Assembly: GCA_004570425.1 (NCBI GenBank)
Contig: SPQJ01000035.1
Span: 1 to 46,196, forward strand
Length of the DNA stretch: 46,196 bases
Source: Bacillus sp. AZ43
GTDB taxonomy: Bacteria; Actinomycetota; Actinomycetes; Mycobacteriales; Geodermatophilaceae
Direction: 5' to 3'
A program made the translations under genes and the position numbers. Numbering within the stretch: the stretch's first letter is position 1; the number at the start of each line of letters is the position of its first letter. Shown here piece after piece: positions 16,881 through 45,007 of this stretch. The notes under the pieces were generated by a model. That model did no database searches and had not been told where the DNA came from. It was given only the letters and a program-made list of their open reading frames with translations.

Positions 16881-19800
16881 GTGAAGACCTGGCTCGACAG
16901 CTGGCCGGTGTACCGGCAGCTCACCGGCTCCGACCCCCTGGGGCGCGGCAAGGCCGCGCGCAGCAAGGGCACCGAGGCGACGGTCTCGCGCACGGCGACC
17001 GCCGACCGCGTCGTCCGGAGCGTCTGCCCCTACTGCGCCGTCGGCTGCGGCCAGAAGGTCTACGTCCAGGACGAGAAGATCACGCAGATCGAGGGCGACC
17101 CCGATTCGCCGATCAGCCGCGGCCGGCTGTGCCCGAAGGGCAGCGCGAGCAAGCAGCTGGTCACCAGCCCCACGCGGGTCACCACGGTCAAGTACCGCCG
17201 TCCGTTCGGGACGGAGTGGGAGGACCTCGACCTCGACACGGCGATGGAGATGATCGCCGACCGCGTCCTCGAGGCCCGGCGCAAGGGCTGGCAGGAGGAG
17301 GTCGACGGCAAGCGCGTCAACCGCACCATGGGGATAGCGAGCCTCGGAGGGGCGACCCTCGACAACGAGGAGAACTACCTCATGAAGAAGCTCTACAGCG
17401 CCCTGGGCGCGATCCAGATCGAGAACCAGGCCCGCATATAGCACTCCGCCACGGTGCCCGGTCTGGGTGCCTCGTTCGGCCGTGGTGGCGCAACCAACTT
17501 CCTGGAAGACCTGGCGAACTCCGACTGCATCGTCATCGAGGGTTCGAACATGGCCGAGTGCCACCCCGTGGGCTTCCAGTGGGTGGGTGAGGCCAAGGCG
17601 CGTGGCGCCAAGATCGTGCACATCGACCCGCGGTTCACGCGGACCAGCGCGATCGCCGACCTGCACGTGCCGCTGCGGATCGGCACCGACATCGCGTTCC
17701 TCGGCGGGCTCATCAACTACGTCCTGACCAACGAGCTGTACTTCAAGGAGTACGTCACCGCGTACACGAACGCGGCCGCGCTCGTGGGCGAGGAGTACGT
17801 CGACTCCGAGGACCTCGACGGCCTCTTCTCCGGCTTCGACCCGGAGAACCGCGTCTACGACGAGACCAGCTGGCAGTACGAGCCGGAGGACCGGCCCGAG
17901 TCGAACGCGGACAACCCGCCGGAGGCGGCCGAGCAGGAGCGCGCCGAGCAGCACCCCGACGTCAAGCACTCCGACCGCGCCCAGGCGGCCGGCAGCGGCG
18001 GCCCGCCGATCCCGAGCAAGCCGAAGCGGGACGAGACGCTGCAGCACCCGCGCACGGTGTTCCAGATCCTCAAGCGGCACTTCGCCCGGTACACGCCCGA
18101 GATGGTGTCGGAGGTCTGCGGCATCGAGCCGGAGGTCTTCGAGCAGGTCGCCAGGTGGGTGACCGAGAACAGCAACCGCGACCGGACGACGGCGTGGGTG
18201 TACTCGGTGGGCTGGACGCAGCACAGCGTCGGCGCGCAGTACATCCGCACCTGCTCGATCCTGCAGACGCTGCTGGGCAACATCGGCCGCCCCGGCGGCG
18301 GGATCATGGCGCTGCGCGGGCACGCGAGCATCCAGGGCTCGACCGACGTCCCGACGCTGTTCAACCTGCTGCCCGGCTACCTGCCGATGCCGCACGCGCT
18401 GCAGCACCAGACGCTCGAGGAGTACGTCGCCGACGCCGAGGGCAAGGCCGGCTTCTGGGGCAACAAGAAGTCCTACATGGTCAGCCTGCTCAAGGCCTGG
18501 TGGGGCGAGCACGCGACGGCGGAGAACGACTTCGCCTTCGACTACCTGCCCAAGATCAACGGCGACCACAGCTCGTACCAGACGATCGCCGCCATGATCC
18601 GCGGCGAGGTGTCCGGCTACTTCCTCGTCGGGGAGAACCCGGCCGTGGGCCACCCCAACAGCCGGATGAACCGGTTCGGGCTGGCCAACCTCGACTGGCT
18701 GGTCGTCCGCGACCTGCAGATGATCGAGTCGGCGACCTTCTGGAAGGAAGGCCCGGAGCACGACACGGGCGAGCTCGCGCCGGAGACGATCGGCACCGAG
18801 GTCTTCTTCATGCCTGCGGCGACGCACGTGGAGAAGGAAGGCACCTTCACCCAGACGCAGCGGGTGCTGCAGTGGCGGCACAAGGCGGTCGAGCCGCCGC
18901 ACGACGCCCGCAGCGACCTGTGGTTCTACTACCACCTGGGCCGCATCCTGCGGGACCGGCTGCAGGATTCCACCGACTCGAAGGACCGCCCGCTGCTCGA
19001 CCTCACCTGGGACTACCCGGTGGAGGGCGAGACGGCCGATCCCAGCGCCCAGGCCGTGCTGCGCGAGATCAACGGCACCGGCCCCGACGGCCGCGCGCTG
19101 TCGTCCTACATGGAGATGAAGGACGACGGCTCGACGACCGGCGGTTGCTGGATCTACTGCGGCGTCTACGCCGACGAGGTCAACCAGGCCGACCGGCGCA
19201 AGCCCGGCACGGAGCAGGGCCCCGTCGCCTCCGAGTGGGGCTGGGCGTGGCCGCTCAACCGGCGGATGCTCTACAACCGCGCCTCGGCCGACCCCGACGG
19301 CAAGCCGTGGAGCGAGCGCAAGAAGTACGTGTGGTGGGACGAGGACGCCGGCGAGTGGACCGGCCTCGACATCCCGGACTTCGAGAAGAAGAAGCGCCCC
19401 GACTACGTGCCCCCGGAGGGCGCCAAGGCGCAGGACGCGCTCGCCGGCAACGACCCGTTCGTCATGCAGGGCGACGGCAAGGCGTGGCTGTTCGCTCCGG
19501 CGGGCGTGGTCGACGGGCCGTTGCCGACGCACTACGAGCCGGCCGAGTCCGTGGTCGAGAACGGCCTGTACAAGCAGCAGGCCAACCCGACGGTGGAGTA
19601 CATCGAGGGCCCGTGGAACCGGCGCAACCCCGCGACCAGCGACGTCTTCCCCTTCACCGTGACGACCTACCGGCTCACCGAGCACCACACGGCCGGCGGG
19701 ATGAGCCGCACGCTGCCCTACCTCGCCGAGCTCCAGCCGGAGTTCTTCGTCGAGGTGAGCCCGGAGCTCGCGACCCTGCGCGGCCTCGAGAACAACGAGT

Positions 19801-20174
19801 ACGCGACGCTGGTCAGCGCGCGGACGGCCGTCGAGGCGAAGGTGCTGGTCACCGAGCGGGTGCGGCCCATCAAGCTGGCCGACGGCCGCGTCGTCCACCA
19901 GATCGGCATGCCGTACCACTGGTCCTACGCGGGCATCTCCACCGGCGACGCCGCCAACGACCTGCTCGGGATCGTGCTGGACCCGAACACGCACATCCAG
20001 GAGTCGAAGGTGTCGACCTGCGACATCGTCCCGGGTCGGCGGCCGCGCGGCCCCGAGCTGCTGGAGTTCGTCGAGTCCTACCGCCGCCGGGCCGACGTCC
20101 CCTCGGGGCGGGTCGGGGTGAACGGGCGGGACCCGGTCGAGGCGAGCGCCGGCGAAGGGTCCACGGGGTCATGA
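16881..20174 (+). CDS. fdhA: Formate dehydrogenase catalytic subunit, UAG-encoded selenoprotein
   Basis: Read through the in-frame TAG at 17439-17441, this is one 1097-residue molybdenum/tungsten bis-MGD enzyme oxidising formate to CO2. The start is GTG 16881, with weak start signals. A [4Fe-4S] site uses C49, C52, C56 and C84, followed by Lys86 (LCPKG). Residues 182-198 read NQARI-stop-HSATVPGLGAS, where FdhG/FdhF enzymes have selenocysteine followed by His. Later landmarks are WTQHSVGAQYIRTCSIL, GNIGRPGGGI, LVGENPAVGHPNS and a C-terminal MopB domain with MPYHWSYAG. The frame stays open and family-like for 911 codons after the TAG. No twin-arginine signal is visible. A hydrophilic acidic insert lies near residues 333-375. 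The stop is followed 25 nt later by the beta subunit. Confidence 0.93.
17439..17441 (+). other. UAG codon at the selenocysteine position (residue 187)
   Basis: TAG replaces the usual Sec TGA or Cys codon of this family, between Ile186 (a rare ATA) and His188. The catalytic residue of formate dehydrogenases belongs exactly here. UAG read as selenocysteine needs a tRNA-Sec with a CUA anticodon, which is not encoded in this window. Confidence 0.9.
17453..17471 (+). promoter_or_regulatory. SECIS-like hairpin
   Basis: GGTGCCCGGTCTGGGTGCC folds into a 7-bp stem with two G-U pairs and the loop GGUCU. The loop core GGUC is that of the E. coli fdhF SECIS bound by SelB. From the stop codon to GGUC there are 18 nt, the same as I count in E. 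coli fdhF from memory. The hairpin lies inside coding sequence, as bacterial SECIS elements do. Confidence 0.85.
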
Positions 20175-20199: not shown

Positions 20200-21261
20200 A
20201 TGACGATCAGTTCGGCCAGCCCGGCCTTCACGGGCAGGGATCCGCAGAACCGGCTGTTCGGGCCGCTGCCCGACGTCGCGGCGGAGGCGGGTTACGAGCC
20301 CGAGCACCCCAAGCGGGTCGGCTTCTTCACCGACACCTCGGTGTGCATCGGCTGCAAGGCCTGCGAGGTGGCGTGCAAGGAGTGGAACACGCTGCCGATG
20401 GACGACTCGCACGGCGTGCGCGACGCCATCGGGCTGTCGGGCATGTCGTACGACAACACCGGGCAGCTCGGGGCCAACTCGTGGCGGCACGTGGCGTTCA
20501 TCGAGCAGTCCCGCGCCGTGGACCTGCCGATGCCGACGTTCGGCCGGCCGGGTGACGACCGCAAGGACTCCGGCCCGTCGCCGGCCACCTACGGCGACGA
20601 CGTCAGCCTGGCGAACGCCCAGCAGAGCGTGCTCAACGCCGAGGCGCTGAGCGAGTTCGACCCGCAGACCGGGCAGAGCGGAGCCGACAAGCAGGTCCGC
20701 TGGCTGATGAGCTCCGACGTCTGCAAGCACTGCACGCACGCCGGCTGCCTCGACGTGTGCCCGACCGGTGCGCTGTTCCGCACGGAGTTCGGCACCGTCG
20801 TCGTCCAGGGCGACATCTGCAACGGCTGCGGCTACTGCGTGGCGGCCTGCCCGTACGGCGTCATCGACCAGCGCAAGGGCGACGGCCGGGTCTTCAAGTG
20901 CACGATGTGCTACGACCGGCTGACCGACGGGCTGCAGCCCGCGTGTGCCACCGCGTGCCCGACGCAGTCCATCCAGTTCGGCGACCTCGACGAGCTGCAG
21001 GCCCGCGCGGACGCCCGGCTGGCGACGCTCCAGGCGCAGGGGGTGGAGACGGCGCGGCTCTACGGCCGCGACGAGAACGACGGCGTCGGCGGCGACGGGG
21101 CCTTCTTCCTCCTGCTCGACGAGCCGGAGGTCTACGGCCTGCCGCCGGACCCGATCGTCACCACCCGCGACCTGCCGGCCATGTGGAAGGCGGCCGGCAA
21201 GGCGGCGGTCATGATGATCGGGGTCGCCGTGACGGCGATCGTCGGCTCGCGGCGGAGGTGA
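20200..21261 (+). CDS. fdhB: Formate dehydrogenase iron-sulfur (beta) subunit
   Basis: 353 residues from ATG 20200, with ribosome site GAGAGGAGG upstream. It carries electrons from the catalytic subunit to the membrane subunit. Four ferredoxin-type cysteine groups are visible: C49-x2-C52-x2-C55-x3-C59, VCKHCTHAGCLDVCP, ICNGCGYCVAACP and the pair CTMCYDRL with PACATACP, giving capacity for four [4Fe-4S] clusters. Residues about 65-170 are a long insert between the first and second group. A hydrophobic segment near the C-terminus (AVMMIGVAVTAIVG) probably anchors it in the membrane. It ends 1 nt before the next gene. Confidence 0.94.
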   Translation: MTISSASPAFTGRDPQNRLFGPLPDVAAEAGYEPEHPKRVGFFTDTSVCIGCKACEVACKEWNTLPMDDSHGVRDAIGLSGMSYDNTGQLGANSWRHVAFIEQSRAVDLPMPTFGRPGDDRKDSGPSPATYGDDVSLANAQQSVLNAEALSEFDPQTGQSGADKQVRWLMSSDVCKHCTHAGCLDVCPTGALFRTEFGTVVVQGDICNGCGYCVAACPYGVIDQRKGDGRVFKCTMCYDRLTDGLQPACATACPTQSIQFGDLDELQARADARLATLQAQGVETARLYGRDENDGVGGDGAFFLLLDEPEVYGLPPDPIVTTRDLPAMWKAAGKAAVMMIGVAVTAIVGSRRR

Positions 21262-21262
21262 C

Positions 21263-22303
21263 ATGACCGGCGGGATCACCAGCCCGGGCGCCGGGTGGCG
21301 CCAGGCCGACCGCGGCCCGGCGACGCAGCGGACGGGCAAGAAGCGCCGTCGCGGCGGAGGCCGTGGCCGCGGCGAAGTGGCCATGGTCGACGACGTCGAG
21401 TTCACGTCGTACTACGGCCGGCAGATCGTGAAGACGCCGGTGTGGAAGTCGCCCGACGTGCCGCTGTACCTCTTCCTGGGCGGCGCGGCCGGCTCGTCGT
21501 CGATCCTCGCGGCGCTGGCCGACCTGACCGACCGCCCGACGCTCACGAAGGTGGGCCGCTACACGGCGGGCGCCGGCGGGCTGCTGTCGGTCGTCGCGCT
21601 GATCCACGACCTGGGGCGGCCGGAGCGGTTCCTGCACATGCTGCGGGTGCTCAAGCCGACGTCGCCGCTGTCGGTGGGCACCTACATCCTCTCGCCGTTC
21701 AGCGCCGCGGCCGCCGCGACGGCCGGGGTGGAGCTGCTGGGCTGGTTCCCGCGGCTCAAGCGGTTCGGGGGAGTGGTGTCGGCGATCTTCGGCGGCCCGC
21801 TGGCCACCTACACCGGCGTGCTGCTCGCGAACACCGCGGTGCCGTCGTGGCACGTGGCGCACACCCAGCTGCCGTTCGTCTTCGGCGGCTCGGCGATGGC
21901 GGCCGGCGGCGGGATCTCGATGGTCTTCGTGCCGGTCGACGAGGCCGGGCCGGCGCGCACCATGGCGATCGCCGGTGCGGCGATCGAGCTGGCCGCCATG
22001 CACAAGGTGGAGAACGACCACGGCATCCTCAGTGAGCCGTTCCACGAGGGGCGGCCCGGCAGGCTCATGCGGGCGGCGAAGACGGCGACCGCCACGGGCG
22101 CCGGGCTGGCCGCGATCGCCGGGCGCACCCGCCTGGGCGCCATCGCGTCAGGGACGCTCCTGGCGGCCGGCTCGCTGCTCACCCGGTTCGGCGTCTTCGA
22201 GGCCGGCATCGCCAGCACCAAGGACCCGAAGTACGTCGTCGTCCCGCAGCGCGAGCGCCTCGCGGCGCGGCAGAACGAGCACGCCGCCACGACGACGAGC
22301 TGA
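21263..22303 (+). CDS. NrfD/PsrC-type membrane subunit of formate dehydrogenase
   Basis: 346 residues from ATG 21263, one base after the beta-subunit stop. The N-terminal 45 residues are strongly basic (KKRRRGGGRGRG) and may be cytosolic; an internal ATG at residue 41 is an alternative start. The rest contains about eight hydrophobic helices. Recognisable stretches are PLYLFLGGAAGSSSILAA, HDLGRPERFLHMLRVLKPTS and GPLATYTGVLLANTAVP, all typical of NrfD-like quinone-reactive subunits. It likely passes electrons to menaquinone. It replaces the cytochrome b subunit used in enterobacterial Fdn. Confidence 0.9.
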   Translation: MTGGITSPGAGWRQADRGPATQRTGKKRRRGGGRGRGEVAMVDDVEFTSYYGRQIVKTPVWKSPDVPLYLFLGGAAGSSSILAALADLTDRPTLTKVGRYTAGAGGLLSVVALIHDLGRPERFLHMLRVLKPTSPLSVGTYILSPFSAAAAATAGVELLGWFPRLKRFGGVVSAIFGGPLATYTGVLLANTAVPSWHVAHTQLPFVFGGSAMAAGGGISMVFVPVDEAGPARTMAIAGAAIELAAMHKVENDHGILSEPFHEGRPGRLMRAAKTATATGAGLAAIAGRTRLGAIASGTLLAAGSLLTRFGVFEAGIASTKDPKYVVVPQRERLAARQNEHAATTTS

Positions 22304-37514: not shown

Positions 37515-39025
37515 GCCAGACGAGCCAGCAGGTTCGACCGGCGGTCGCGTCGGTGAACCGGAGGGTACGGCAGGTCTCGGCCTTCTGGTCGGTGTCTCTC
37601 CTGACCGCGGCAGCTGCGGGAATGGCGGTCGGCCTGTCACCGGTCATGGCACTCGCCGGCATCGTGGTGGTCGCGCTGGTGGTGCTCGTGGCACGGCGCC
37701 CGGAGTGGGCCGGCTACGTCTACCTCGGACTGGTCCCGCTCATCGTCGGGCTCCAGCGAGGAACGATCCTCCCGGTGATCCGCCTGAACGAGGCGCTCCT
37801 CGGCGTTCTCTGGCTGGGGCTCCTGCTCGGACCCGTACGGCGGTGGGCCGTGGCCGGATTCCCGCGTCCGCGCTTCGTCGGGCTGGACCTGGCCGTGCTG
37901 GGAATGGCGTTCTTCAGTTCGGTTACGAGCCTGCTCTGGATGTACGTCAGGGCTGTTGAGATCACCGCGGACGACATCCTCTTCGCACTGACGCTGTGGA
38001 AGTACGGGGCCCTGTACGCCCTCTTCCGCGTGAGTCTCCGTTCCGAGCGTCAGGTGCGGACGGGGATCATCACGACCCTGGCGGCGTGTGTCCCGGTGGC
38101 CGTCATCGGGATCCTGCAGGCGATCGGCGTCCCGGCCGTTCTCTCGTTCCTGGTCCCGTTCGCCACTGACGAGGGGCCAGAGGCACTCGCGAACAACCGG
38201 GCCTCCTCCACGATCGGCGCACCGATTCCCTTCGGCGACGTTATGGTCATCGCCCTCTCGCTCAGTCTGGGGTGGCTGATCTGCGTCGCAGTCAGGCGGG
38301 CCCTGGTCGGTACGGCGGCGGCCCTCTTCGGGCTCGGGGCGGTCGCGTCGGGTCAGGTCTCCAGCTGGATCGGTCTGATCGTCGCCGGGCTCACCATCGG
38401 CTGGGCGATCGGCCAGTTGCGCCGCGCCGTCGCCGGTCTCGTCGTGCTGTCGGCCGCGGCGGCGTGGGGGTTGCAGCCGGTCATCACTGCTCGGATCCCG
38501 GCCGGGGAGGGGGTACCGTCGGCGTGGACGGGGGAGGACGGTCGCATCGGCAACCTCTCCACCTTCATCTGGCCGCGCATCGGCGAGGGGCTCAACTGGC
38601 TGCTCGGCGTCCGCACCTCGGCCCGGATCCCGGCGCCGGAGGTCTGGCGGGAGTGGGTCTGGATCGAGAGCGGCTACACGTGGCTGATGTGGAACGGCGG
38701 ACTGCCACTCACCATCGTCTTCGTCCTCTTCCTCGTGGCCGCCGTGCGGACGGCGAGGCGCGTTAGCGTTACGGCTACGCCGGCGTTCCGAGCAGTCGGA
38801 CTGGCAGCGGTGGGAAGCCTGGTGGTGCTGGCGGTCCTGATGGTCGTCGACCCGCACCTCACCATGCGGGGCGCCGCGGATCTGCTCTTCCCGGTGGTCG
38901 CGATGTGCGCCAATTGGCGCGCCGCTGCGCCCGCGGCCTCGGCCTCGGCCCAGGACGAATCGCGCGCAGCAGACGAGGAACTCCCCAAGGGTGCGGGGAT
39001 CGTGGATCGGGTGCGCCCGGCATGA
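37511..39025 (+). CDS. O-antigen polymerase/ligase-like membrane protein (Wzy candidate)
   Basis: 504 residues from GTG 37511, overlapping the flippase stop. There are about 11 hydrophobic helices, a large outer loop (GRIGNLSTFIWPRIGEGLNW, about residues 345-390) and the tail segment WIESGYTWLMWNGGLPLTIV. This matches the architecture of Wzy/WaaL proteins, whose sequences diverge strongly. Placement after Wzz and the flippase supports polymerisation of the repeat unit. Sequence motifs alone do not decide polymerase versus ligase. Confidence 0.75.
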   Translation: MSQTSQQVRPAVASVNRRVRQVSAFWSVSLLTAAAAGMAVGLSPVMALAGIVVVALVVLVARRPEWAGYVYLGLVPLIVGLQRGTILPVIRLNEALLGVLWLGLLLGPVRRWAVAGFPRPRFVGLDLAVLGMAFFSSVTSLLWMYVRAVEITADDILFALTLWKYGALYALFRVSLRSERQVRTGIITTLAACVPVAVIGILQAIGVPAVLSFLVPFATDEGPEALANNRASSTIGAPIPFGDVMVIALSLSLGWLICVAVRRALVGTAAALFGLGAVASGQVSSWIGLIVAGLTIGWAIGQLRRAVAGLVVLSAAAAWGLQPVITARIPAGEGVPSAWTGEDGRIGNLSTFIWPRIGEGLNWLLGVRTSARIPAPEVWREWVWIESGYTWLMWNGGLPLTIVFVLFLVAAVRTARRVSVTATPAFRAVGLAAVGSLVVLAVLMVVDPHLTMRGAADLLFPVVAMCANWRAAAPAASASAQDESRAADEELPKGAGIVDRVRPA

Positions 39026-39086
39026 CCGGGCGGGGAGCACGACGCAGGGGCTGGCGAGGCCTGCCCCTGGACACCAGGAGGTGACC

Positions 39087-39575
39087 ATGTGGCACTGGCA
39101 CCGCCGCGGAGCGGATTGCCGGATGATGCTGGTGTACAACCCCGGTGGTCACCGCAGGGAACTGGAGATGGCCGTCCGGGATCTGGCGCCGAGCGTCGTC
39201 CTCTGTGTCACGTTCCGCCCTCTCCAGGGCATCAGATTCCAGACGGAGCCGGCGTCCCTGAGGACGGTGGGTGTCACCCATCCTCGTCGGCGGGCCGGGC
39301 GCCTCCTGCTCAACGCACTCCAGTCCGTCTTCCACATCGTGGCGTTCCGGCCCTGCGTCATCATCACCAGCGGGGCGGATGCAGCCGTGGCCAGCGTCGT
39401 CCTCGGCAAGATCCTCTTCCGCCGCAGGACTCTCTTCATCGAGAGCGCCGGAACGCTGGGCCCCACCCTCGCGGGCCGCTTATGTCACCGGTTCGCCGAT
39501 CTCATGGTGGTGCAGTGGCCGGAACAGTCCGCCGTCTACCCGGGCTCCAGAAGATTGGACGCACCCCTGCTGTGA
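39087..39575 (+). CDS. Alg14/PssD-like glycosyltransferase membrane partner
   Basis: 162 residues from ATG 39087, with a near-consensus ribosome site AGGAGGTGA. It resembles the Alg14 half of split GT28 enzymes: MMLVYNPGGHRRELEMAVRD (the G-G-H motif), PCVIITSGADAAVASVVLGK and RTLFIESAGTLGPT, ending LMVVQWPEQSAVYPGS. This half binds acceptor lipid and recruits the catalytic partner, encoded next with a 4-nt overlap. Confidence 0.88.
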   Translation: MWHWHRRGADCRMMLVYNPGGHRRELEMAVRDLAPSVVLCVTFRPLQGIRFQTEPASLRTVGVTHPRRRAGRLLLNALQSVFHIVAFRPCVIITSGADAAVASVVLGKILFRRRTLFIESAGTLGPTLAGRLCHRFADLMVVQWPEQSAVYPGSRRLDAPLL

Positions 39576-40084
39576 GCCTCTTCCTGGTGGTCGGCACCAC
39601 GCCCTTCGGCTGGAACGAGCTCGTCCGTGCCGTCGACGACGTAGCTCGTAGCGAGAACCTCTCCGGCTCGGCGCAGATCGGCAATGGAACGTATGAGCCG
39701 ACCGCGTTGAGTCATGAGAGGTTCGTGCCGCACGACGTCATTCTCGAGAACATGCGCTCGGCGGACATCACGGTAATCCACGGCGGCCTCGGCAGCATCG
39801 GCGACGCCCTGCGGAATGCGCGGCGACTGGTGGTTGCGCCGCGGACCCTCGGCATCGGCCGGCACGGACGCCAAGAGGCCCCGAACGACCAATGGCCGGT
39901 CGCACTCCGCCTGGCCGAGGTGTACGGCTTCGACTGTGTTCCGCTGTCGCAGATCGGGTCCGCGATCACGTCTCAGCTGGAGCGCCCGCCGCAGCGGTGG
40001 AGCGTGCCCACCGGGAATGCGACGCACCTCATCGAGGAGTGGCTGGCGGCCGAGGGCCTGCGCATCAACAAGGGCCCGCGCTGA
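39572..40084 (+). CDS. Alg13/PssE-like glycosyltransferase catalytic subunit
   Basis: 170 residues from GTG 39572, within a GTGA overlap with its partner. It is the C-terminal half of a GT28-type enzyme: LFLVVGTTPFGWNELVRAVD, SHERFVPHDVILENMRSAD, VIHGGLGSIGDALRNARRLV (nucleotide-sugar binding H-G-G-x-G) and PNDQWPVALRLAE. Together the pair should add one sugar to the lipid-linked intermediate. Which sugar cannot be read, though GlcNAc or glucuronate are used by relatives. Confidence 0.9.
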   Translation: MSLFLVVGTTPFGWNELVRAVDDVARSENLSGSAQIGNGTYEPTALSHERFVPHDVILENMRSADITVIHGGLGSIGDALRNARRLVVAPRTLGIGRHGRQEAPNDQWPVALRLAEVYGFDCVPLSQIGSAITSQLERPPQRWSVPTGNATHLIEEWLAAEGLRINKGPR

Positions 40085-40146
40085 GCCCTGATGCTCGATC
40101 GTGGGGTCCTCGACCCTGGTCGCGGGGTGCCTGACGAACGCTCGGC

Positions 40147-40159
40147 TAGCATCCAGCGC
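40147..40159 (+). promoter_or_regulatory. Leaderless -10 element for the PRTase gene
   Basis: TAGCAT (40147-40152) lies 7 nt before ATG 40160. It favours that start over ATG 40091 and implies a separate transcript for the PRTase-HAD pair. Confidence 0.42.
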
Positions 40160-40756
40160 ATGATCCGACCGCCGGCGCGCCGGGACCTGTACGGAGAGGG
40201 GTTCGGCACGGTCTGCGGACAACTGGCCGAGGCCGTGCGCGACTACGGGCCAGATCTCGTCGTCGGGATCGAGACCGGCGGTGCGCGTGTGGCGGAGGCC
40301 ATGCTGGCGACCATGGGTGACCCGGCGTACCTCTCGGTTCGCATCCAGCGCCCGGCGACGAAGGTGAAGTCGTCACTGCGCATCGGCCGGCTGGTGAGTC
40401 GGCTCCCGCGGCCGTTGGCGGACGGGCTCCGCTGGGCCGAAGTCGAACTGCGCGAGACGTCACTGAGGAGTCGCCGCCCCTCGGTTGAGTCGACGGCACA
40501 GCAGCTCCTCGGTACGACGGGCCTGCAGCATGCCGCCGAGAAGGCGCAACGGATTCTCGTCGTCGACGACACCATTGATTCCGGGCGCACCCTCCTGACT
40601 GTTCGACGCGCTGTTGAGCTGGCCAGTCCCAGGGCAGAGATCCGCACCGCTGTGCTGGCTTCCACATGGCGACGGCCGCCCGTACGGCCGGACTACTGCC
40701 TCTTCGGCCGGACGCTCCTGCGCATGCCGTGGAGCTTCGATGCCCAGGCGTCTTGA
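40160..40756 (+). CDS. Phosphoribosyltransferase-fold protein
   Basis: 198 residues from ATG 40160. The PRPP-binding loop is clear, ILVVDDTIDSGRTLLTVRRA, and an upstream pyrophosphate-loop region DLVVGIETGGARVAEAML is present. Between them lies a longer than usual basic segment (residues 75-130), so this is not a standard purine or orotate enzyme. It overlaps the HAD gene that follows by 17 nt, so the two act together. A role in salvage, or in making a phosphoribosyl-decorated lipid or sugar, is possible; nothing in the sequence decides. Confidence 0.8.
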   Translation: MIRPPARRDLYGEGFGTVCGQLAEAVRDYGPDLVVGIETGGARVAEAMLATMGDPAYLSVRIQRPATKVKSSLRIGRLVSRLPRPLADGLRWAEVELRETSLRSRRPSVESTAQQLLGTTGLQHAAEKAQRILVVDDTIDSGRTLLTVRRAVELASPRAEIRTAVLASTWRRPPVRPDYCLFGRTLLRMPWSFDAQAS

Positions 40757-41369
40757 CGGTCCGGTCCTCGCCTGCGATCTGGACGAGACCCTGGTGCGGG
40801 TGAACACGTTCCCCTTGTTCGTCCGTTTCACCGGCAGGCAGTTGCTGGCCCAACGTGATTACCCCGCCCTGGTACGCCTCGCCCTGGCGGTGGCCGCACG
40901 TCGCCTCTTCGGTGGGTCGCACGTGCGTTTCAAGGCGGAGGTGCACGCTCTGGGGCGACGGCTCGATGGGGCAGCGGTGGACACCTGGGCGACCGGCGTC
41001 TTCCGTGCGCACGTCAACGCTGACGTGCTGCAACGGGTCGCGGAGTGGCGGGGGCACACGGTCCTGGTGACCGCTGCGCCGAGAATCTATGCCGAGCGGA
41101 TCGGCGCCCTGGCCGATGTCACGCTGGTCCAGGCTAGCGACTTCGGCGATGCGGGATATGACGAGAACGTGCACGCCCGCAAGGCGCGACGTCTGCAGGA
41201 CGTGCTGACGGACCGCCTCGATTGCGCCATCACCGACGACGTACGTCTGGACGGTCCGCTCCTCGAGATGGCGGGCCGACCGCTCGTGGTGGACAGCAAC
41301 GGAACGATCCAGGACCTGGGTGCACCTGGTGGCGGTGCCCGGCCGGAGTCGCCTTCCGCACTGCCGTAG
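40740..41369 (+). CDS. HAD-superfamily phosphatase (phosphoserine-phosphatase-like)
   Basis: 209 residues from ATG 40740, starting inside the PRTase gene. Motif I is ACDLDETLVRVNTFP, motif II HTVLVTAAP, the motif III Lys lies near HARKARRLQDVL, and motif IV is CAITDDVRLDGPLLEMAG. A helical cap follows motif I. It probably removes phosphate from the product of the preceding PRTase-like protein. The tail (last 15 residues) is disordered. Confidence 0.82.
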   Translation: MPRRLDGPVLACDLDETLVRVNTFPLFVRFTGRQLLAQRDYPALVRLALAVAARRLFGGSHVRFKAEVHALGRRLDGAAVDTWATGVFRAHVNADVLQRVAEWRGHTVLVTAAPRIYAERIGALADVTLVQASDFGDAGYDENVHARKARRLQDVLTDRLDCAITDDVRLDGPLLEMAGRPLVVDSNGTIQDLGAPGGGARPESPSALP

Positions 41370-41402
41370 GCGGGGCGGGCCCACCAAACCGGCCCGAGTG
41401 CA

Positions 41403-41720
41403 TCAGCCTGCGTCGGAGTGTGGATACCGTCGCCGGGTTCGGCCGGGTGGTCGGCCGACCGGGGGCCGTGCGGAGGGAAGTCCCGGGATCGTGGGCGGGC
41501 CCGGCGAGGTGAGTGGGTCGAGCGCGCCCTCCGAAGCCCGGGCAGACGCCCCGGCCTCCGGCGCCGGGATGACGGGATGGTCGACGACGAAGTTCGGGGC
41601 GTGGCCGGACCCGGTTCCCGGGCCGTTGCTCTCCGCCATTGCGATGGCCCGGCCGACGAGCGGGGAGACAACCACCGCGAGGAGCACCCATGCCGCTGTT
41701 GCGGCCAAGACCCAGTCCAT
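41403..41720 (-). CDS. Membrane protein of the W-x7-W-x11-GR family with long tail (copy C)
   Basis: 105 residues from ATG 41720, with GAAGAAGG about 9 nt upstream. It reads MDWVLAATAAWVLLA, then PLVGRAIAMAE, so the signature is kept with Glu in the last place. The single helix is followed by a Pro/Ala/Ser-rich tail of about 75 residues, much longer than in copies A and B. It lies tail to tail with the HAD gene, 33 nt apart. Confidence 0.65.
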   Translation of the reverse strand: MDWVLAATAAWVLLAVVVSPLVGRAIAMAESNGPGTGSGHAPNFVVDHPVIPAPEAGASARASEGALDPLTSPGPPTIPGLPSARPPVGRPPGRTRRRYPHSDAG

Positions 41721-42131
41721 TCGGGCGCCCTTCTTCGGTGATGGCGGGACCCGATTCCCGGGCCGGACGTCCATGGCGCACCTTATGTGCCCATGCGCAG
41801 AGTGCATATGCGGGGGAGATATGCACTCTGCAGTCTCTTATGTGCGGTGGCCGCCGCGCACTGCTTGGCGCGACGAGGCTCGGCGGCCGTTGCCACGTAT
41901 GCAAGCGTGACGGAATACGGCCGGAGCGGCCGGGTGACCTCACAAGGAACGTGGTGACACTGTCGGGGTGGACGGACTGACTCCGCCATTAGATGCCGGA
42001 AGCGTTCCATTGCTTTCGTGGCTGAAAGTCGGTCGCGGTGGCCGCTGAGCAGCCATGCGGTGTCGTAGGCTCACCCGCCCCACGTCCGTCCGGTCGGAAG
42101 GAGATCGGAGTCCCCACTCCGAGCATCAGCA
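41721..42131. other. 411-nt intergenic region between copy C and the hydroxyacid oxidase gene
   Basis: It is less GC-rich than its surroundings. It contains a strong hairpin flanked by 9-bp direct repeats (listed separately) and a TAGGCT hexamer near 42066, about 60 nt before the oxidase start. AAGGAG at 42098-42103 is rather far from GTG 42132. No convincing gene was found in either direction. Confidence 0.6.
41782..41845. repeat. 13-bp perfect hairpin flanked by 9-bp direct repeats
   Basis: GCAGAGTGCATAT (41797-41809) and ATATGCACTCTGC (41819-41831) are exact inverted copies around a 9-nt loop, GCGGGGGAG. CTTATGTGC occurs just outside on both sides, at 41782-41790 and 41837-41845. No T-tract follows. 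It could be a divergent operator, an RNA hairpin, or a tiny inserted element with target duplication. Confidence 0.7.
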
Positions 42132-43199
42132 GTGCTTCCAGGACTCGCCCAGAACTACGCCGCCGCCCGCGCTGTGCTGTCCGAGGACGTCTGGGACTAC
42201 TACGAGGCCGGCTCGGGCCAGGAGGTCACGCTCGGCGAGGCCGAGCGGGCATGGCGGTCCTACCGCTTCCGCCCCCGCGTCCTCCGGGACGTCTCGTCCG
42301 TGGACCTGGCCACCGACCTCCTGGGCACACGCGTTTCCTCGCCCTTCGTCGTCGCACCCATGGCGTTCCACGCCCTGGCCAGCACGGACGGGGAGTGCGC
42401 GACCGTCGCCGGGAGCGGTGACGCGGGGGCCCTCTCGGTCGTGTCGACGCGCGCCTCGCGGACCGTGGAGGACATCGCCTCCGCCGCGACGGGTCCGTGG
42501 TGGTTCCAGGCGTACCTCATGCGCGACCGCGGCCTCACCGAGGCGCTCGTGCAGCGGGCTGCTGCCGCCGGCGCCCGTGCGATCGTCCTCACCGTCGACA
42601 CCCCCTACGTCGGACGCAAGAACAAGGTGGTCGGCGTCCGCTTCGCGGTGCCGGAGGACCAGTACCTGATCAATCTCGCCCAGCACCTGCTGCCCGGGGC
42701 GGTCGGACGGGAGTCGGCGGAGCAGGACCCGTCGATGACACCGGAGGTCATCGGCCGGCTGGCCGACATCAGCGGCCTGCCGGTGGTCGTGAAGGGTCTG
42801 CTCCGGGGCGACGAGGCGCAACGGTGCGTCGACGCGGGGGCCGCCGGCGTTGTCGTGTCCAACCATGGCGGCCGCCAGCTCGACCGCGCCGTACCCAGCG
42901 CGCTGGCGCTCCCCGACGTCCTCCAGGCCGTCGGCGGCCGGGTGCCGGTACTCGTCGACGGCGGCATCCGTTCCGGGCTCGACGCGCTGGTGGCTCTGAC
43001 CCTCGGGGCGAGCGCGGTACTGGTCGGCCGGCCGGTGCTGTGGGCTCTGGCCGCGGGCGGGCGCGACGCCGTCGACCGCACTCTCCGGGAACTCACCGAG
43101 GACCTCCGCCATGTGATGGCCGTGGCCGGGGCCGCGAGGGTCGGCGATCTGGATCCCAGCATGGTGATGATCTCGCCCGGGTCGACCGGAGGCCTCTAG
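42132..43199 (+). CDS. FMN-dependent alpha-hydroxyacid oxidase/dehydrogenase
   Basis: 355 residues from GTG 42132. Family members oxidise L-2-hydroxyacids such as lactate or glycolate. Visible features are YYEAGSGQEVTL near residues 24-35, SPFVVAPMAFH (flavin binding), the substrate Tyr in FQAYLMRDR, LTVDTPYVGRKNK, Lys in VVVKGLLRG, the catalytic SNHGGRQLDRA, and VPVLVDGGIRSG with LGASAVLVGRPVLW. The start codon is weakly supported. Its presence inside a polysaccharide locus is unusual; the substrate is not known. Confidence 0.9.
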   Translation: MLPGLAQNYAAARAVLSEDVWDYYEAGSGQEVTLGEAERAWRSYRFRPRVLRDVSSVDLATDLLGTRVSSPFVVAPMAFHALASTDGECATVAGSGDAGALSVVSTRASRTVEDIASAATGPWWFQAYLMRDRGLTEALVQRAAAAGARAIVLTVDTPYVGRKNKVVGVRFAVPEDQYLINLAQHLLPGAVGRESAEQDPSMTPEVIGRLADISGLPVVVKGLLRGDEAQRCVDAGAAGVVVSNHGGRQLDRAVPSALALPDVLQAVGGRVPVLVDGGIRSGLDALVALTLGASAVLVGRPVLWALAAGGRDAVDRTLRELTEDLRHVMAVAGAARVGDLDPSMVMISPGSTGGL

Positions 43200-43213
43200 T
43201 GATACAGATCACA
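43198..43213. promoter_or_regulatory. CRP/GlxR-type binding site
   Basis: AGTGA-TACAGA-TCACA differs from the consensus TGTGA-N6-TCACA in only its first base. It overlaps the stop codon of the hydroxyacid oxidase and is 295 nt upstream of the sugar transferase start, so it could act on that gene. Binding by a cAMP-responsive regulator is inference. Confidence 0.5.
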
Positions 43214-43507
43214 ACGGATGGGAGGGCGGCCGACGGCGGGCCTGTTCGGGCGAACCGGCGTCCTCGTCCGGCCTGACGGCGGAGCGTCGGTCACGCTGAG
43301 TCACCCCTACGCTGCGTAACGGCGGGTCGTTCGTCGGCCACCCTTGCTGGGCGTAGACGTTCCTCACCGCGCTCACCGCGCCGCTCTTCTCGTTGTGTGG
43401 CAAAGGGTTCCGATCACTCAACGTGTCGGTTACGGTCGCCGGGCGGATGAACCGACCGCTCCGCACGTGGTCGGCCTTCGACGACCGACCGACGGGGAGC
43501 CCGATTC
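43200..43507. other. 308-nt intergenic region upstream of the sugar transferase gene
   Basis: Apart from the CRP-like site at its left end it has no supported gene. Short basic peptides in several frames lack ribosome sites. The promoter of the initiating sugar transferase should lie here. A less GC-rich patch around 43384-43430 (TTGTGTGG...) could include it, but no convincing -35/-10 pair was settled on. Confidence 0.5.
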
Positions 43508-45007
43508 ATGCTGACGATGGACAGCCAGCTGGTCCATGGCGAACAGCTCCGCGGGAGTGGGGGCTCCCCGGTCGCCGAGCCGACGAGGCGCCGCACGGCC
43601 TGGCAGGCGGCGTACGTCCGGCGGACCGTCATCGGCGACCTGCTGGCCGGCTTCCTGGCCGCTCTGGCCGGCTATCTCCTCCGCTTCGGGCCCGACACCT
43701 CGCCCCAGGGGTATCAGGTCGCGTCCGCATGGATCGCGTGTGTTCTCCCGGTGGTGTGGGTGGCGGCGATGGCCCTCGGCAGGACGTACGAACGGCGATT
43801 CCTCTGGGTCGGTGCCGAGGAGTTCCGCCGCGTCTTCAGCACAGCCGTCCTGCTCCTGGCGGCCGTGGGAACGGTCAGCTGGGCCTTCCAGCTCCAGGTG
43901 GCTCGCGGGCTGGTGGTCGTGGCGTTGCCCCTCGCAACCGTCCTCACGCTCCTGGCGCGCTATGGCCAGCGCGCCTGGCTGCACCGTCAGCGCTCCCACG
44001 GTCGCTTCGGTCAGTCCCTCCTGATCGTCGGGCACTACTCCGGTATCGCAGCACTGCACGCGCAGCTCGAGCGCGAGGCCTACCACGGGTACCGGGTCGT
44101 CGGCTGCTGCACGCCGACGGGAACGGATCCCGCTGACCCGCAACCCGGCTTCCAGTCGCTGCCGGTGCTCGGTGGCTTCAGCGACGTGGTCTCCGCGGTC
44201 GAGAGGCACCACGTGGACGCGGTGGCCGTACTGTCCTCTCCGGAGCTGGACGGTCCAGCGTTGCGCCGGCTGGGCTGGGTGTTGGAATCGACCGACGCGG
44301 AACTCCTCCTCGCGCCTGCTGTCACCGACGTCGTCGGGCCACGGGTGAACATCCGTCCGATCTCGGGGCTGCCGCTGCTGCACATGCAGCGTCCGGAACT
44401 GCGTGGCATCCGGCGACTTGCCAAGGAGACGACGGACAAGGTCGCCGCGACGTTCGTGCTGCTCCTGACGCTGCCCCTCCTCCTCGGCGTGGCGACGGCG
44501 GTCCGGTTCACCAGCCGGGGGCCGGTGCTCTTCCGTCAGGAGCGGGTCGGCCGGGACGGCAAGCCCTTCGTCATGCTGAAGTTCCGCACGATGGTCGAGG
44601 GCGCGGACCGGATGGCGTCGACGCTGGTCACACCCAACGACGGGAACGGCGTCCTGTTCAAGCTCAAGAGCGACCCGCGAACGACGCGGGTCGGCAGGTT
44701 CCTCCGTCGTTACTCGCTCGACGAGCTGCCTCAGCTGCTCAACGTCCTTCGAGGAGACATGTCCCTCGTCGGACCGCGACCGCCCCTGGCGAGCGAGGTC
44801 GAGCGGTACGGCATCGACATGCACCGCCGCTTCCTGGTGAAGCCTGGGCTCACGGGCCTGTGGCAGATCAGTGGTCGGTCGAATCTGTCCTGGGACGACT
44901 CCGTGCGGATGGATGTGCAGTACGTCGAGAACTGGTCCCTGGCATTCGACTGCATGATCCTGTGGAAGACGCTCGGTGCTGTCGTCCGAGGCTCGGGCGC
45001 TTACTGA
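43508..45007 (+). CDS. Polyprenyl-phosphate sugar-1-phosphate transferase (WbaP/WcaJ-like)
   Basis: 499 residues from ATG 43508. It starts polysaccharide assembly by moving a sugar-1-phosphate from a UDP-sugar to undecaprenyl- or decaprenyl-phosphate. Four N-terminal helices (about 40-155) precede a Rossmann-like soluble region (SLLIVGHYSGIAALHAQLE). A fifth helix follows near 315-335 (VAATFVLLLTLPLLLGVATA), then the catalytic domain: LFRQERVGRDGKPFVMLKFR, RYSLDELPQLLNVLRGDMSL, VGPRPPL and KPGLTGLWQISGRS. The length is typical. Confidence 0.95.
   Translation: MLTMDSQLVHGEQLRGSGGSPVAEPTRRRTAWQAAYVRRTVIGDLLAGFLAALAGYLLRFGPDTSPQGYQVASAWIACVLPVVWVAAMALGRTYERRFLWVGAEEFRRVFSTAVLLLAAVGTVSWAFQLQVARGLVVVALPLATVLTLLARYGQRAWLHRQRSHGRFGQSLLIVGHYSGIAALHAQLEREAYHGYRVVGCCTPTGTDPADPQPGFQSLPVLGGFSDVVSAVERHHVDAVAVLSSPELDGPALRRLGWVLESTDAELLLAPAVTDVVGPRVNIRPISGLPLLHMQRPELRGIRRLAKETTDKVAATFVLLLTLPLLLGVATAVRFTSRGPVLFRQERVGRDGKPFVMLKFRTMVEGADRMASTLVTPNDGNGVLFKLKSDPRTTRVGRFLRRYSLDELPQLLNVLRGDMSLVGPRPPLASEVERYGIDMHRRFLVKPGLTGLWQISGRSNLSWDDSVRMDVQYVENWSLAFDCMILWKTLGAVVRGSGAY

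Follow-up and report, generated by a model that had tools for sequence, protein, structure and literature searches.

A formate dehydrogenase gene of the Geodermatophilaceae with a predicted UAG selenocysteine codon, and a putative UGA cassette in a related genome

The release factor that competes with selenocysteine (Sec) insertion at a UGA codon is RF2, and at a UAG codon it is RF1. In the part of PMC5330540 considered here, three Geodermatophilaceae genomes are described as having a tRNA-Sec with the anticodon CUA, and a Sec-TAG codon, for which its reference 56 is credited, is given for formate dehydrogenases, UGSC-motif proteins and an AhpC of Blastococcus saxobsidens. UAG is likewise named as a Sec codon in Blastococcus in the portion of PMC5133445 consulted, and in some bacteria in that of PMC8124441. 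The locus analyzed here shares with this system its family, its formate dehydrogenase gene, the UAG codon and the CUA anticodon; since the same sections of PMC5330540 concern the same family and gene, it is already known in kind and in group. UGSC genes with TAG also occur in relatives of the window, and we found no difference in kind. The window's own genome has no UGSC match and no AhpC-TSA match with an internal stop. With the canonical bacterial UGA-Sec system this genome has in common SelA, SelB, SelC, SelD and a SECIS hairpin, and it differs in its codon, UAG, and its anticodon, CUA. We take reference 56 to be the 2016 study of Mukai and co-workers, in which Sec insertion at UAG in Geodermatophilaceae was reportedly shown by labelling. 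An earlier note on this DNA had pointed to a 2016 report of UAG-directed Sec in the group, and this attribution is right as far as the citing papers, in the parts consulted, show.

The window, by which we mean the whole stretch of DNA that was analyzed (46,196 nt), contains fdhA and its operon partners:

16881..20174, + strand: fdhA, formate dehydrogenase major subunit (NF041513; Pfam Molybdopterin, Molybdop_Fe4S4 and Molydop_binding), 1097 residues if UAG is Sec
17439..17441, + strand: in-frame TAG, codon 187, putative Sec codon; sole internal stop, in an aligned column common to relatives
20200..21261, + strand: formate dehydrogenase iron-sulfur subunit (Pfam Fer4_11)
21263..22303, + strand: membrane subunit, NrfD-like (Pfam NrfD and NrfD_2 over cut-off)

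The fdhA frame runs from a GTG start at 16881 to a TGA ending at 20174. Read through, it matches the NCBIfam model NF041513 (formate_DH_Act) over residues 4-1070 with 1923.4 bits (cut-off 1400), and the TAG falls at the Sec position of the formate dehydrogenase family. The earlier note had described a single TAG splitting a continuous FdhA frame at exactly this position, which holds for the entire 1097-residue frame. Its further statement that family-like sequence continues for 911 codons after the TAG stands for the continuation and needs correcting for the count: 186 codons precede the TAG and 910 sense codons follow it, 911 being the number with the terminal stop included. Both downstream genes are open frames, and the operon partners are intact, as had been claimed. 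The iron-sulfur subunit finds its best NCBIfam match in TIGR01582 (FDH-beta) at 175.8 bits, under the cut-off of 334.7, and the NrfD-like gene matches no NCBIfam family.

A contig scan for fdhA confirmed 525 relatives, the best 80 of which were taken as loci, and the codon at the Sec site was read in 80 genes, namely the window's own and those of the best 80 of 525 with L084 left out. The site holds TAG in 69 of these 80 genes and TGA in 11; in the alignment of relatives that the earlier note had proposed, this corresponds to TAG in 69/69 ingroup genes and TGA in 11/11 outgroup genes. The TAG genes come from Blastococcus, Geodermatophilus, Modestobacter, Klenkia, Goekera and Trujillonella, from two Geodermatophilaceae strains without a genus name and from one MAG titled Frankiales bacterium; the TGA genes come from Pseudonocardiaceae, Actinopolymorpha and Nocardioidaceae. 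In a quick protein tree built with the Sec column removed, all 69 TAG genes lie on one side of a branch with support 99, so that TAG and TGA are separated by a single change when the tree is rooted on the chosen outgroup, and the window's fdhA is placed among the Blastococcus rows. In two genomes fdhA is present as a pair of diverged genes (L086 and L089; L059 and L088), all four with TAG at the Sec site.

Because the identical column holds TAG in all 68 of the same-clade relatives whose site was read, the TAG at 17439 is not due to chance. In our view this conservation already refutes a sequencing error or a broken gene, an explanation for which the window's gene offers the interrupted frame and that alone, and against which the conserved full-length sequence after the TAG and the presence of a matching CUA tRNA (see below) also speak; we give it practically no credence. 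One relative, G079, could be cited in favor of a broken gene, as its two fdhA copies (L326 and L327, on C4 and C12) lack the Sec codon and the hairpin stretch that follows it and have lost the frame. The 3′ junctions of these copies are similar, and either both copies have decayed or the assembly has lost sequence at the hairpin.

The window's genome (G000) is a 4.06-Mb draft in 78 contigs. Scans of the window for tRNAs and for Rfam families at gathering score were negative; selC lies on another contig, C44, with the other sel genes:

C44:12250-12341: tRNA-Sec, anticodon CUA (RF01852, 66.8 bits, cut-off 47)
about C44:6313-8085: selB (TIGR00475 over cut-off)
C44, frame end adjoining selB: selA (TIGR00474, 421.1 bits, cut-off 267.9)
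about C44:12985-13992: selD (TIGR00476 over cut-off)

The earlier note had suggested searching the genome for a selC with anticodon CUA and for selA, selB and selD, and all four are present, the three protein genes lying within 8 kb of the tRNA. Besides this tRNA, only an ordinary tRNA-Ser scores over the RF01852 cut-off. Pyrrolysine is also inserted at UAG by a tRNA with the anticodon CUA, and ARAGORN indeed labels the C44 tRNA as tRNA-Pyl (anticodon cta). This tRNA, however, belongs to the Sec type: the tRNA-Sec model aligns with it over the full length, its neighbors are sel genes, and seven UCA tRNA-Sec from other genera of the family share 83 to 91% identity with it. Moreover, the codon at the same site is TGA in the 11 outgroup genes. 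We consider it exceedingly improbable that the UAG is read as pyrrolysine and retain Sec as the amino acid concerned. A UCA tRNA-Sec was found in nine of the 11 TGA outgroup loci within the stretch examined; the remaining two have no tRNA-Sec within that stretch. The other selenoprotein families tried in G000 were AhpC-TSA, UGSC and the AhpD-like P0001 only: AhpC-TSA gave eight matches, none with an internal stop, UGSC gave no match at E ≤ 0.001, and P0001 gave none at E ≤ 1e-15.

UAG also serves as an ordinary stop in this clade. Terminal stops were counted in the window, L020 and L021-L089, in predicted genes 200 or more codons long that passed a codon-composition criterion and with 30 fdhA Sec sites excluded; the 263 predicted ingroup genes end in TGA (245), TAG (16) or TAA (2). 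In the window, the gene for an FMN-dependent dehydrogenase (42132-43199), which covers positions 1-348 of the 350 in the Pfam FMN_dh profile, ends in TAG, and the fdhA of L057, which has TAG at its Sec site, is terminated by TAG as well. The terminal TAGs of other genes and of the L057 fdhA indicate that UAG is recoded in context, not reassigned.

Two features flank the Sec codon:

17436..17438, + strand: rare Ile codon ATA directly 5′ of the Sec codon, invariant in TAG genes
17453..17471, + strand: SECIS apical hairpin of seven pairs, loop GGUCU at 17460-17464 (RNAalifold, pair counts)

The hairpin was predicted by RNAalifold from 80 sequences, and its loop is like that of the hairpin after the Sec codon of Escherichia coli fdhF, which is also GGUCU. 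Pairing is maintained in 99.2% of 357 cells (51 distinct rows), with 3 of 357 unpaired, and a slid-hairpin control reaches at most 61%. Cells in which both partners change number 27, compared with 11.0 ± 2.0 in shuffles. The three pairs with such double changes all link third codon positions; the third base of the Val codon and that of the second Gly codon after the site occur as G-U, C-G, G-C, U-A and U-G. Two pairs besides this one show one compensatory change apiece, in L088 and L090. Folded alone, the 19 nt of the hairpin give a z of −2.46. When the 60 nt starting at the UAG are simply folded, their stability is unremarkable (z −0.64), and this folding energy provides no evidence of a SECIS. 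Mean synonymous entropy over the 14 codons 3′ of the UAG equals the gene mean (0.494 versus 0.495), and for four-fold and larger codon sets it is 0.603 in these codons versus 0.755 in the gene; the stretches of highest conservation in the TAG genes lie outside these 14 codons. Directly 5′ of the Sec codon, Ile is encoded by ATA in 69/69 TAG genes and by ATT in 11/11 TGA genes, and the remaining Ile codons are ATC in 2692 of 2747 cases in TAG genes and in 406 of 423 in TGA genes. This invariant rare codon is an addition of the present analysis.

The hairpin also bears on a reading in which UAG mainly stops translation and 16881-17441 and 17454-20174 are separate subunits or are linked by re-initiation. 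A GTG at 17454, just 3′ of the stop, would provide a start for the second piece, but the conserved hairpin and the matching tRNA would then serve no purpose, and we judge this reading to be very unlikely. Recoding systems in general probably allow some termination alongside Sec insertion.

Taken at the level of sequence, these data make it almost certain that the window's fdhA, from a soil bacterium of the genus Blastococcus, encodes a selenoprotein with UAG as its Sec codon. The same claim in the earlier note is supported by the genome's own CUA tRNA-Sec and sel genes, the clade-wide TAG and the SECIS. The parts of a UAG-Sec system are present and conserved in these genomes, and we infer that Sec is inserted at codon 187. 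By analogy with the known bacterial pathway, from which the roles of SelA, SelB, SelD and RF1 follow, SelA and selenophosphate from SelD would make Sec-tRNA-Sec with the anticodon CUA. SelB would carry this tRNA, bind the hairpin located at nucleotides 12-30 3′ of the UAG and place Sec at the UAG in competition with RF1, and UAGs without such a hairpin would terminate translation.

To place this system in its family, we surveyed 112 Geodermatophilaceae genomes for tRNA-Sec at E ≤ 1e-10. A match was found in 108 of the 112, with 110 matches in total, 102 having the anticodon CUA and 8 UCA. By genome, CUA is present in 101 of the 108, with G058 as the one that has UCA in addition, and seven, assigned to genera g5, g6 and g7 under the same family label, have UCA only (L102-L107 and L110). 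This map of 101 CUA-bearing and seven UCA-only genomes is a further addition of the present analysis. Genome G036 has two CUA tRNA-Sec matches of slightly different sequence on separate contigs, C168 (L128) and C25 (L167). The CUA tRNA-Sec of the window's genome is 83% identical to two Nocardioidaceae UCA tRNAs and 71 to 74% identical to the other seven outgroup tRNAs; together with its likeness to the seven UCA tRNA-Sec of the family, these values fit an anticodon change that would have taken place inside Geodermatophilaceae.

At E ≤ 1e-100, fdhA finds no match in any of the seven UCA-only genomes. At E ≤ 1e-8, distant matches resembling formate dehydrogenase and containing one TGA appear in four genomes of g7, one of which gave no tRNA-Sec match; the TGA is at the Sec site in two of them, and the script found no such site in the other two. 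The UCA-only genome G070 (g6) has two short fdhA-like fragments on C162 (L296 and L306), one with 67% identity over 61 residues and the other with 40% and a TAG. The Sec site was seen in neither fragment, and they may be the remnant of a lost fdhA. Elsewhere in the family, by a computed count partly read by eye, fdhA matches that span residue 187 contain TAG and those without TAG start 3′ of that residue. Some rows were scored as having one TGA and one TAG, which suggested two recoded stops; in the one row inspected (G105) the TGA is the terminal stop codon. The UGSC family has matches in 54 of the 112 genomes; among the 95 matches listed, 72 have one internal TAG and 23 have no stop. Where UGSC loci with a TAG were read, this codon occupies the U position of the motif, and eight stop-free loci have TGC there.

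Genome G058, Geodermatophilus sp. LHW52908 of the same family, carries TAG in both an fdhA and a UGSC gene, and its contig C11 encodes a CUA tRNA-Sec and the genome's sole SelB match over the cut-off. Contig C17 adds the following:

C17:1173-1263 (L160), minus strand: second tRNA-Sec, anticodon UCA (81.8 bits, the family's best score)
C17:1579-2157: AhpD-like gene with in-frame TGA (TIGR01926, 112.6 bits, cut-off 81.8, Cys put for Sec in the scan)

The AhpD-like frame starts 315 bp from the UCA tRNA-Sec and has 192 codons; its TGA, codon 98, lies within a C-F-Y-U motif. A hairpin after this TGA is small, with an energy within chance, and provides no evidence of a SECIS. The UCA tRNA-Sec is 83.5% identical to that of Gandjariella and shares a median of 69% identity with the CUA tRNAs. 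GC content around the tRNA and gene is 59 to 65%, compared with about 70 to 75% on both flanks, and an IS110-type transposase and another helix-turn-helix protein are encoded nearby. C17 is 69 kb long, and since its bases 39001-45000 match family genes at about 75 to 86%, it can be assigned to the G058 organism, barring a chimeric join close to its end. The AhpD-like P0001 was not found in plasmids (E ≤ 1e-20), in viral contigs or, of 397 genomes sampled within the order, in the remaining 396 (E ≤ 1e-35), and the window contains no piece of the UCA tRNA.

We read the tRNA and AhpD-like gene on C17 as perhaps a UGA cassette that a UAG genome has acquired. On this basis, G058 may use two Sec codons simultaneously: UAG, decoded by the native CUA tRNA-Sec (fdhA and UGSC), and UGA, decoded by a laterally acquired UCA tRNA-Sec (AhpD-like). 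We regard the chances of this proposal as evenly balanced. Given the single SelB match, one SelB would serve both codons. A second tRNA-Sec copy as such is not new, as PMC5330540, in the part considered, reports genomes with two tRNA-Sec genes, some of them bacterial; that part makes no mention of differing tRNA-Sec anticodons in one genome. A literature search, judged by titles and the starts of abstracts and barely covering subscription journals, listed no paper recognizable as a report of UGA and UAG Sec codons in one natural genome. The putative dual-tRNA case is the most novel part of this analysis.

The window represents one more genome with a natural codon change for the 21st amino acid. 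Most of the family has retained the CUA tRNA (101 of the 112 genomes searched, with the seven UCA-only genomes under the same label), and the UCA and CUA genera together provide material for asking how a recoding signal switches codon. If both tRNAs of G058 work, two Sec codons can coexist in one genome, a stage through which such a change may have to pass.
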